Assembly (NCBI GenBank): GCA_032164295.1
Contig: JAJHTX010000009.1
Span: 558,001 to 622,000 of the forward strand
Direction: 5' to 3'
Length of the DNA stretch: 64,000 nucleotides
From: Inonotus obliquus
Taxonomy: Eukaryota; Basidiomycota; Agaricomycetes; Hymenochaetales; Hymenochaetaceae
Shown: in pieces, positions 45,952 through 50,119 of the stretch
Layout: each line of letters opens with the position of its first letter
How positions within the stretch are numbered: position 1 is the stretch's first letter
Made by a program: the position numbers and the translations under genes
The notes under the pieces: generated by a model
The model's database searches: none
What the model was told of the DNA's origin: nothing
What the model saw: the letters and a program-made list of their open reading frames with translations, nothing else

Positions 45952-46240
45952 GCGGATACAGGGTTTGTTAATTCCAGTTGTTTTGCAATGTATAAATTCC
46001 TGATACGAGGATTAACTTGCAGGGAGACTGGGTCGCAGACCTCAGCTACGGCGATTAGGGTTGCCGAAGTCCGGTCCTTGTCTCCGGTCCAGTCTAGGGC
46101 TCCGCAGCGTATCTTATCCGATACGCGCAGATATTTTCCGTCGTATCCGCATCCGGGCGGATATATCCACCCGGATATCTCATGGCTGCTATCAGATCCG
46201 CTTCCGCGCGTATCTTATAAGGCGTATCCGGCATATCCGC

Positions 46241-48018
46241 TGTCGTGCTGGGATGGTATTGGCTGTTAAATAACCAAGTACACTCCCACTGAGTCAACCG
46301 GTCTAATTATCTAGGCGGGTAGTCTTCCCAGTTGTTCGTTGAAGCTATGGGCAACTTGTTGTAGTTGGAGGGTTGAGGGATTCGAGTTCAAGTAGAGATG
46401 TAGAGTGAGTGAGAGATGAGTCTTTATCCAATTCTCTTGAAAGTGAGTGATAGGTCACCGTGGGTGAGGAGCAATTAAATTGTCCACACCGAGGTAGGCA
46501 ATGACAAGCTATGCAGAATAGATGTCAATGTCTAGAGGGACACACACACTCGAAGTCTCGAGTTATTAGATATCGACTTTGAGAGGGAGTTTATCACCAA
46601 TGTCCAATTGGAACAGAGGCGATACAATACCTTTGACTAGTACCAAACTAGTCCTTGAGCAATGCAGTTACCCAGTCTTAAGCTGTGGTCAACTGTATGC
46701 GACGAAACCTTGACTTGACTTGCAAATAGTGTGACAAGGGGTCACAGAGTGATGTGAGCTTGTCTTGTTCTGGGGGAGAACTCTGGTGAGTTATTCTATG
46801 GGGAGTTAATTCTATATTCCTCTGGGGGGCTACATGCTGGTCCTTAAATACTAATTCCAAGACCAATTTACATAATCCACAGCATAAGCTAAAAATAGAT
46901 CTGCATCAACCACATCATCAAAATTTGATATCTCCTTCCAAAGCTATGCATCAAATACTCCAAATCAAGTGATATGTATCAATGTATCAATGAGTTATTT
47001 GATGAATGATGCGCATCAATGAATTAATTGATGAGTGATGTGCATCAATGCATGATTTGATGAATGCTGTGCATCAATGAATTACTTGATAGATGCTGTG
47101 CATCAATGAGTTATTTGATGAATGATGCGCATCAATGAGTTACTTGATGAATGATGTGCCATCAATGAATCAATTGATGAGTCCAGAATATGGTTCAAGG
47201 TGATGACCTGATCGATGATCTAATCGATGACTTGATGAATGACCTAATGGATGATATAATCGATTACTTGATGGATGAGATAATTGATGACCTAATGAAT
47301 GATATAATCGATTACTTGATGGATGATATAATCGATGACCTGATGGATGATATAATCGATTACCCAGTTTGGGCTTATTTGGTTTTTGGTATCTGGACTG
47401 TGGTCTTTGGTTTTTCCAGAGCGATGTATCGGATGGCTTCTCAGATAAGACCAAATGAATGGTGCAACCGGTGGTTCTTGAACCTTCATTTCTGCTTCTA
47501 GAGCGTGACCATATAAAGAATGGTTTGTTTATCTATCGCCGCTCGAGTTCCTTTTCTGCAATTCTTTGTTCTAATGCCACCTTCACGACTTCGTGCACGA
47601 CTTCACCATCTGCTCTGCCACGCTTCTGAACTTCTCAGGCTGACTTTTGTGTATCGTCGCGCTTCCTCTAACCCGATTCAGTGAGTTACTTTCTCGACAC
47701 TTTGCGATCTTTATGCTTAATAGCACGAAGAGTATTTGTGGAGACGACTATCATGATCGAGGAGGAGTGGGTCGAGTGGGTACCGGTGCTTGTTACTAGA
47801 CGAGTTGTGCTCAACGCTTGATAGTAAGCTTGGCACTTTCCATCGGCTTTCGATTTGCTAACTTGTGTGCAGAATTACGAGTTACTGCGACGTCCGATAT
47901 TTCTTGTTTATCCTTTCTGATGTCCTACTATGTTCTTGCTTCCGATAGTGTAAAGCGTGCCAATATTACGATTGTTTATGTCCAGGCAATATCCTGGCCT
48001 GACACCACGACCAAGGTT
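46241..48018. other. Foreign interior of element A copy 3
   Basis: Absent from copies 1 and 2. 46300-46870 has LTR-like composition but no partner. 46980-47365 is tandemly repeated. 47520-48000 has short frames and GT/AG-like sites but no protein I recognise. It could be captured host DNA or another insertion. Confidence 0.4.
46980..47365. repeat. Minisatellite, two unit types
   Basis: 46980-47180: units of roughly 30 bp built on GTGCATCAATGAATTACTTG and GATGAATGATG. 47200-47365: units of roughly 45 bp built on GATGATATAATCGATTACTT. In one frame the second block reads an acidic DDLMDDIIDYL repeat; in the other strand it reads a His/Ser repeat. Both are by-products of the repeat. Confidence 0.75.
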
Positions 48019-48959
48019 GATAGTATACTTACAGAGCAAAACAATGTCCCAGGACCTTCCAACGTGCATATAACGAAGTGCCATCGGTGCTTTTGGGACA
48101 ACACAACGTCAACGAATGGTCAACATGGTGATTGGTGAAGGTCCAAATGTGTAATCCCGCCGTCACCCAACCTGATTCTTGGCAATAGCATCTGACTAAT
48201 CATTTTCTAGGGTTCAATTACTTGGTATGGTACGGAAACCTAGTGAAAGGAACGCAAACCCTGGCTTACGAAAGGTTTTGGCTCTTTGGAGGGACATTCG
48301 ACTGATCAAATTCCACGTATTTCATCATTAATTCGTCATCCTTGAGCCCCCCCAGGGTGGATGTCGTATAAGCGCGGATACGGCGGATTTCCAATGTCAT
48401 ATCCAGTTCCGCGCGTATATATCCGCCCGGATATTTGCTCTTCAAGATCCTATCCGCGTCCGGGCGGATAGCGGATCCGGCGTATCGGATCCGGGATATC
48501 CGATACGCTGCGGAGCCCTAGTCCAGTCACTTTTGCCTGGACCTCGAACCGGACCGGTCCACTTTCCAGCTCTTTGTATGGACCAGGACTGGACGGCTGG
48601 CGGACCACACTTGGACTGGACATTTGGTTCGGTCCAGGTCCGACCCTGGTCCGGACCTGGACCAGATGTATTATTGTTAATTCCAATATTCTGTGAATAT
48701 TTGGTTTACCATGCACACTGTCGAAGTTTTAGCAACCTCACTAACCAAGTGTGTTCAATTTTGTGAGTCACAAAGGCTGTCACGCACGGAACTTGTCCAA
48801 GGTTGTCGACGTCGATGTGCAGGGTGAAATGTTAGGAAACCGTGAACAGCATGGTTGCCCAACTTTCATCACTTGCAAACGAAGTTATCTGGGTGTCGAT
48901 CGAAGTCGTTATTGCAGGTAGATTCGGTGGACAAGCATTTGCTCCTGACATGAAAGGGG

Positions 48960-49680
48960 TGTGCAAGGTTAGTTATAGGTCCGACTGTAACAATGAGTTC
49001 ATGTAACATGTCGCACCCTGATTCTTTAAGTCAACATATCCCGTCTCCTTTTTTGAGTCATAGCTACACAAAGGCATCAGAACCATGCAAAGCTACAATG
49101 CATGAATACGATTCTAAGCTCTACAAAGTTGTGGCATAACACTTCCGTTGGGTCCTCGAGGACACGCACGAAAACGCTAACATCTACCGTCTCATCTTCG
49201 ATCGTGGGATAGCTGTAACCCTATTGAATAGTAAACAGCTTCCTCAACTCGCTGAAATGTGTAAAACCCCAATCGCACTCATCAGCAATGAAACGATGGT
49301 GCGCATCTAGGGATAATTCTGATATTGGTCGTGCCCCAACATGCGAAAAGCTATGACTATTCAGATGAGGGGAAGTGCAAGACGTACGAGAAACGGTGTA
49401 GATGGTGGGATTCGAGATGACAAGAGCGAGCTGAGCGTATGCATGCCATCCCTCTGGTGCTCTCTTTAGATCGGCAAAGTACAGATACAGGGATACGGTA
49501 TCGTTCGGTGGCGCGTTTGAATTACCGAAGGGATATAAAAGTGTTCGCCTAGTAAGACATCCAAAGATGAATGGTAAATCGTTATCACGGTGAAAGGTAA
49601 GGATGTACCAACGATGTCCCCCACCTCAAACTCCAGACTGATAATCTTCTTCTTTAATTTCCTCCGATTTGCCAGCCTCC
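48960..49680 (-). pseudogene. Captured UBP15/USP7-type deubiquitinase fragment inside element B copy 2
   Basis: Minus strand, same piece as in copy 1 but longer. MATH part: KLKKKIISLEFEVG, intron, RTLLYPFGNSNAPPNDTVS, KRAPEGWHAYAQLALVISNP, intron, RFIADECDWGFTHFSELRKL, an in-frame TAG, YPTIEDETVDVSVFVRVLED. Then, after an intron-like gap, [11 protein letters not shown] and [18 protein letters not shown], the USP cysteine box (48985-49065), ending in a stop. The His and Asp catalytic boxes are absent. The fragment cannot encode an active protease, but could encode a short MATH-containing peptide. Confidence 0.85.
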
Positions 49681-50119
49681 AATGGTAAACGGTGAACGAC
49701 CTTATTGCGTACCTGCCAAACCGGTCCAGTCCAGGTCCGGACTGGTCCACCCCGGTCCGAGAAAACAGAAGGGAGCCGGACCAAGGACCGAACCAACCTG
49801 GACCTCAGCTGAACCGGACCTGAACTGGACTGGACTGTTGGTTCGGTCCGTGTCCGGACTGCGGTCCACACGGTCCAGGACCGGACTTCGGCAACCCTAA
49901 CGGCGATGGCACAGAAGAGAGATCGAGACTGAAGGCGGTTTTCCGAGTTTCAGAGATTAACTAGGAAAATACAACGAAGTATGGATTTCGGACGTGATAT
50001 ACAGTACATCAGTGGAATAGAGCTAGAAATTCTGCTTTGGCAGACTCAAGGAGGGACGTTTGGTGGAATGAAATTGCAGTTTACTGTCGAAAGCGCACCG
50101 TATAACGCAAGCATCATAC

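Follow-up and report, generated by a model that had tools for sequence, protein, structure and literature searches.

A 64,000-bp stretch of the Inonotus obliquus genome (contig JAJHTX010000009.1; G000:C9:558001-622000; here called the window), taken from an assembly of 36.07 Mb in 30 contigs, contains two copies of what is very probably a non-autonomous, Pack-TYPE-like hAT transposon family with a composite passenger from two host genes. In this passenger, the 5' part of a UBP15/USP7 ubiquitin protease gene would meet, tail to tail, a fragment of a gene for a stress-sensing poly-HAMP histidine kinase (Nik1-type) that lies in antisense. Plain coordinates refer to the window, whereas D numbers give the position along the donor stretch of the UBP15 gene, counted on the minus strand from D1 at C2:1763285. 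The two copies are composed of the following parts.

38024-38031: left 8-bp duplication CGCTCAGG of copy 1, with the right duplicate at 39383-39390
38032-39382, plus strand: copy 1, complete, 1351 bp, with terminal inverted repeats (TIRs) and duplication
38032-38238, plus strand: left hAT end of copy 1, TIR and GGTCC/GGACC subterminal array
38239-38889, plus strand: UBP15/USP7 piece of copy 1, donor D379-1040 and the last bases before D1112, 88% identical to the donor
38323-38382, plus strand: first of the donor introns kept in copy 1, 60 bp, GTACGT..ACTAG, from the donor splice model
38544-38624, plus strand: second of the donor introns kept in copy 1, GTACGT..CCTAG
38812-38867, plus strand: third of the donor introns kept in copy 1, GTTCAT..TGTAG
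38306-38710, plus strand: open frame of 134 aa, MATH exons with unspliced introns, no methionine
38890-39143, minus strand: putative antisense poly-HAMP histidine kinase piece (Nik1-type) of copy 1, assigned through the relative L071
39144-39382, plus strand: right hAT end of copy 1, subterminal array and TIR
46056-46094, minus strand: first part of the outer element of copy 2 (right hAT end), TIR
48521-49899, minus strand: main part of the outer element of copy 2, duplication ACGGCGAT
48731-48981, plus strand: HAMP kinase piece of copy 2, oriented opposite to the UBP15 piece of this copy (antisense)
48982-49692, minus strand: UBP15/USP7 piece of copy 2, donor D379-1112, catalytic-cysteine (Cys) box present

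The ends of both copies are marked by the 19-mer TAGGGTTGCCGAAGTCCGG, which was found at 38032, 39382 (with two mismatches), 46056 and 49899; against these four matches in the window, 100 shuffles gave none. The flanking 8-bp duplications are identical in 8 of 8 positions, both for copy 1 (CGCTCAGG/CGCTCAGG) and for copy 2 (ACGGCGAT/ACGGCGAT), and the family ends carry subterminal arrays of GGTCC/GGACC. The genome was searched with a 21-base end pattern allowing up to 3 mismatches, and the same pattern read backwards was used as a control. We obtained 78 family ends (TAGGGTTGCC..) and none with the control. These ends form 35 convergent pairs whose 8-bp duplications differ from pair to pair. 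The duplication was perfect in 19 of the 23 copies with both ends readable and agreed in 6, 4, 3 and 3 of 8 positions in the other four. The end pairs and their duplications show that the family has moved by cut-and-paste, leaving 8-bp duplications behind. Copy 1 has a 99% identical counterpart at C6:668700-670047.

The matches to UBP15 listed for the genome come from 40 of 119 candidates, those that were scored, and the locus counts are therefore lower bounds. They mark 39 UBP15-like places including the donor gene, and at least 33 of these are near a family end, that is, within 10 kb of an end matched by the pattern. Among the matches listed, 30 of the 35 end pairs enclose a UBP15 match. The remaining five pairs span 674, 674, 685, 6124 and 18695 bp. 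The pair of 6124 bp holds kinase and Cys-box matches. The three short pairs, at C2:265059-265732, C8:347359-348043 and C10:1686047-1686720 (674-685 bp), are perhaps family members without the capture.

An intact UBP15/USP7 gene was found at C2:1758812-1763257. Its splice model, placed by hand from two overlapping loci, has 19 exons and encodes 1105 aa with the domains MATH_2, UCH, USP7_ICP0_bdg and USP7_C2; the USP7_C2 locus at C2:1758982-1759594 was the only one found in the genome. The interior of the elements is about 88% identical to this gene over about 0.7 kb, introns included, and the C2 gene is likely the donor of the UBP15 piece within the same genome. Most copies hold D379-1112 with introns at D464-522, D693-787 and D975-1030. 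A longer piece starting from D140 occurs in four copies (L034-L037), two of which also keep D28-59 or D24-59 (L035 and L037). L035 preserves the start codon of the donor gene together with its first splice donor, and to the three introns of the short form it adds two more, the first of them shortened. Since introns were kept, the UBP15 piece was taken from genomic DNA. Among L009-L046 there is no locus where the match to UBP15 extends past D1112, a point directly behind the Cys box, and in six distinct loci (L009-L013 and L018) it ends at D1040 and the Cys box is deleted; in copy 1 this box was lost through a deletion between ACTCA repeats. The captured part would thus run from about the start codon in the longest forms to the catalytic-Cys box in most copies. 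As in Pack-TYPE elements, a non-autonomous element has a host gene fragment enclosed by its TIRs, and the donor of this fragment lies elsewhere in the genome. The frame at 38306-38710 matched MATH_2 with E=2.6e-7 and 31.4 bits, just below the 32-bit cut-off, and the Cys-box frame of copy 2 matched UCH with E=2e-4 and 21.4 bits, below the cut-off of 23.9 bits. Both matches are borne out by the DNA identity to the intact donor gene.

These results agree with the original prediction in its core, a non-autonomous hAT family with matching 19-bp ends, GGTCC/GGACC subterminal repeats, 8-bp target duplications and an intron-containing piece of a UBP15/USP7 gene for which a donor was to be sought in the genome. 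The Cys box had rightly been assigned to only one of the window copies. Both copies are real, but the family is not confined to two, and three introns are kept rather than two. The single element drawn at 46056-49899 is in fact an outer element split by a nested TIR element of 2426 bp. A single larger duplication as the origin of the copies is not supported by 35 end pairs with differing duplications. Three features had escaped notice: the HAMP piece in antisense, the insertion nested in copy 2, and the older relative that lies at 41267-41956.

A search with the donor gene beyond D1112 revealed further repeated fragments. D1742-2586 is present at four places with equal limits and 79-84% identity. 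Eight places contain parts of D1113-1478 that are 77-95% identical and share nearly the same 3' limit. None of these loci has a family end within 10 kb. The four places with D1742-2586 are C9:1189638-1190450, C3:435232-436044, C5:268358-269153 and C3:2905099-2905909. A UBP15 copy with 78-85% identity, covering MATH and part of UCH and interrupted by in-frame stops, was seen at C2:1855835-1856897, about 93 kb from the intact gene and on the same strand. The USP His box usually has the form GGHY. In the splice model of the donor gene (L053, at D of about 2075) it reads DLHGHYF and is one glycine short of this form.

To the right of D1112, the interior derives from a second gene, which codes for a poly-HAMP histidine kinase and is present as a piece in antisense. 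This was recognised in the relative L071, where the reverse strand contains a frame of 83 aa without a stop that matched HAMP (PF00672) with E=1.7e-9 and the histidine kinase of PDB entry 9trk in two stretches with E=6.4e-34. NCBIfam gave only matches far below the cut-offs for the HAMP frame. The piece presumably resembles Nik1 itself, and we know of no fungal protein outside the Nik1 type that has several consecutive HAMP domains. Fungal group III (Nik1-type) kinases have several such domains in a row (PMC3848655). Pfam found nothing above cut-off in six short frames of copy 1, with one weak Vicilin_N match. The possibility that the right-hand interior is native transposon DNA was rejected once the kinase piece had been recognised from the longer frames of the relatives in the window and of L071.

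The joint between the UBP15 and HAMP pieces, TTACAGTC followed by GGACCTAT, was compared in an alignment of 22 copies. They belong to the 33 UBP15 loci near a family end, and the 11 others were left out, mostly because the stretch retrieved did not span the whole element. It is identical in all 22 copies and also in L027 and L031. The same joint occurs in two relatives without family ends, L071 and the following one in the window.

41267-41956, minus strand: older relative, UBP15 D817-1112 at 41665-41956 and HAMP at 41267-41664, no family ends

A search for ends around this relative gave no convincing pair. Three other loci (C1:3705029, C9:827429 and C13:1007849) match both gene pieces and not the ends, and at five more (C10:1279327, C10:1798271, C10:1467303, C1:3977800 and C4:275256) only the kinase piece was seen; none of these eight relatives is within 10 kb of a family end. 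Because the joint occurs in relatives without family ends, we infer that the composite core either is older than the different sets of ends or was transferred from one set to another. At the C13 locus the coordinates run from UBP15 (D375-1040) through the kinase piece and about 690 bp to UBP15 again (D1213-1471), all on a single strand. This collinear order points to a longer UBP15 fragment that received the kinase piece as an insertion.

The assignment to a superfamily was based on the ends. A short hAT-type TIR has the motif (T/C)A(A/G)NG, and the family ends fit this motif together with subterminal repeats. On C5, the locus L061 codes for a dimerisation domain of the hAT type (PF05699, E=6.2e-13), and its 3' end carries the same GGTCC/GGACC array as the family and terminates with CTGGACCGGACAAGGACCGGACCGCGGCAACTATA. 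Between L061 and the family, 26 of 30 terminal bases are equal, with at most 18 in 10,000 shuffles, and the local score of the 3' ends was 75, with at most 30 in 1000 shuffles. Judged from these ends, the family is assigned to the hAT lineage, and its mover was probably a hAT transposase that would read the TIR and the GGTCC/GGACC arrays. NCBIfam gave no match for the hAT frame. The end pattern of the L061 type was found 7 times in the genome (3 exact) against 2 for the control, with a single pair, on C6. A KDZ transposase was considered as the mover and rejected, as every one of the 11 matches to PF18758 lies farther than 10 kb from the family ends. The 18695-bp end pair sits on C13, where no PF05699 match was listed. 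On C6, an end pair of 583 bp (302091-302673) is intermediate between the TIR of the family and that of L061.

The captured UBP15 piece is dead at the protein level. The MATH exon has lost 1 bp in each of the 22 aligned copies, a deletion that changes TTTGAGTGTGG to TTTGAGGTGG, or in two copies to TTTGGGGTGG, and in a later exon all 22 have CAATAGGGT, a TAG stop in the donor frame, so that no intact frame of the captured domain was found among them. The kinase piece likewise showed stops and frameshifts in all six copies translated. When only those differences from the donor are counted on which all copies agree, codon positions 1 to 3 have 7/146, 8/148 and 7/148, respectively, and the introns 10/196. 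Changes over all codon positions are expected when the copies are no longer under selection. In the majority sequence, 19 transitions from G/C to A/T were counted against 14 in the reverse sense, the direction of each change not being polarised, and therefore there is no strong bias of the kind left by repeat-induced point mutation (RIP).

Several observations weigh against a hAT family with a composite passenger and a silent UBP15 piece. Five of the 35 end pairs lack a UBP15 match among the 40 of 119 candidates that were scored, and therefore perhaps not all members carry the piece. The copies of the family itself are more broken than L071, and their stitched translation gave no Pfam match to HAMP. 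The kinase donor gene was not located, no genome search having been aimed at the recognised piece. The left end of L061 was not found, and the end of a further locus, L062, is weaker, with 21 of 30 terminal bases and a local score of 23 that falls within the shuffle range; no transposase-bearing element with exactly the family ends was found. When majority bases are counted, the differences to the donor are 7/170, 11/172 and 11/172 at the three codon positions and somewhat more frequent in the introns, with 18/196.

Different explanations for the passenger were also weighed. The proposed decoy function was considered in the form of short MATH proteins that are made from the captured piece and compete with UBP15 for its substrates. 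MATH_2 profile matches were found at 12 places, all of them in element copies or a relative, the MATH domain of the donor being split by introns, and L035 has kept a start codon as well as the first splice donor. However, the deletion and the stop are shared by 22 of 22 copies, the 134-aa MATH-like frame of both window copies has no methionine, and a codon-position bias is not clear. The protein decoy was rejected on the broken frames and we give it almost no probability. An effect of the passenger at the RNA level is improbable, if less so. In this case, sense UBP15 and antisense kinase transcripts might be made, and small RNAs from the dispersed copies might dampen one or both host genes. 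The antisense orientation of the kinase piece to UBP15, the long similarity to the donor and the spread over at least 33 loci are in line with this idea, but an identity of 88% restricts long perfect stretches and the spread of the changes suggests no constraint.

The origin of the interiors could be different as well. They might be deletion remnants of a larger mobile element that once held much of a UBP15 gene and not captures from the C2 gene. Such an element would account for the equal limits of D1742-2586 at its four loci, for the near-common 3' limit of the D1113-1478 parts at eight loci and for the collinear order on C13. Yet the fragment loci are without a family end within 10 kb and no USP7_C2 locus was found besides the C2 gene, and we consider this origin rather unlikely. 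Somewhat better placed, though still short of an even chance, is a stepwise shuffling of gene fragments, similar to that by plant Pack-TYPE elements. UBP15 up to D1478 would have been captured first. The kinase piece would then have been inserted at D1112, after which new hAT ends acquired the core and it was amplified; D1742-2586 would have been captured separately. With such stepwise and separate captures, the housekeeping gene UBP15 would be a recurrent source and the cores would pass between transposon families. The order of the capture steps can be worked out since the donor, the long and short forms and the older relatives are present in one genome.

We then compared the family, as a non-autonomous hAT family with a composite passenger, with known systems. 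In the open-access literature searched, no hAT capture of two genes with introns was reported for a fungus. Helitrons have no TIRs and are not known to make 8-bp duplications. In Pleurotus ostreatus they capture gene fragments and are thus basidiomycete transposons with a similar cargo, but they are rolling-circle elements, unlike the TIR family described here (PMC4289320). The fungal precedent is histone H3, a host gene that is carried, whole or in part, and multiplied by hAT elements with TIRs in Pyrenophora tritici-repentis (PMC3538342) and in Pseudocercospora and relatives (PMC6710886). The latter also have 8-bp duplications, and copies are inactivated in P. fijiensis (PMC6710886). In both reports a single captured gene is named, whereas two unrelated genes are joined here. 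In addition, the H3 gene of Pseudocercospora is intronless, pointing to capture of a transcript or retrocopy, and inactivated by RIP, while introns were kept here and the G/C-to-A/T excess is slight (PMC6710886). The expectation that such a capture would be unusual in a basidiomycete is fair within the literature searched, but hAT capture of host genes had already been published for ascomycetes.

A further similarity is with the plant Pack-TYPE and Pack-hAT elements, which are non-autonomous TIR elements with captured coding DNA and whose hAT members all have an 8-nt duplication; they are described for plants, and the stem 'fung' is absent from the main text of that paper (PMC8903248). DNA transposons with TET/JBP dioxygenases in fungi also carry a gene beyond the transposase, and "hAT" appears 38 times in the paper, but there the extra gene is encoded by the transposons, whereas broken fragments are the cargo here (PMC12730594). 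Turmoil-1 of C. elegans combines two protein-coding sequences in one transposable element, but this is an animal element and, unlike here, the two sequences lie within its inverted terminal repeats (PMC2572040). Gene capture by fungal hAT elements is therefore known, and the case with two genes and introns looks new in the kind of its cargo. If our reading holds, cut-and-paste elements in fungi too carry joined, intron-containing fragments of two unrelated regulators, as plant Pack-TYPE elements do, and the joined core is common to loci without the family ends.

Copy 2 is interrupted by a second element, within which a further repeat was recognised.

46095-48520: nested non-autonomous hAT-type element, 2426 bp, TIR TAGGGCTCCGCAGCGTATC, duplication GTCCAGTC at 46087-46094 and 48521-48528
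46241-48004: repeat in the nested element, about 1.77 kb, resembling a long terminal repeat (LTR), TG..CA ends

For the LTR-like repeat in the window a flanking duplication was sought and no clean one was found; in the genome, eight pairs of copies are spaced 12.3-14.0 kb apart. The 19-bp end TAGGGCTCCGCAGCGTATC of the nested element is identical to the 3' end of the hAT transposase loci L063 and L065, and therefore its likely mover can be named. DNA resembling the nested element was also seen at 42940-43554 and 21390-22017.

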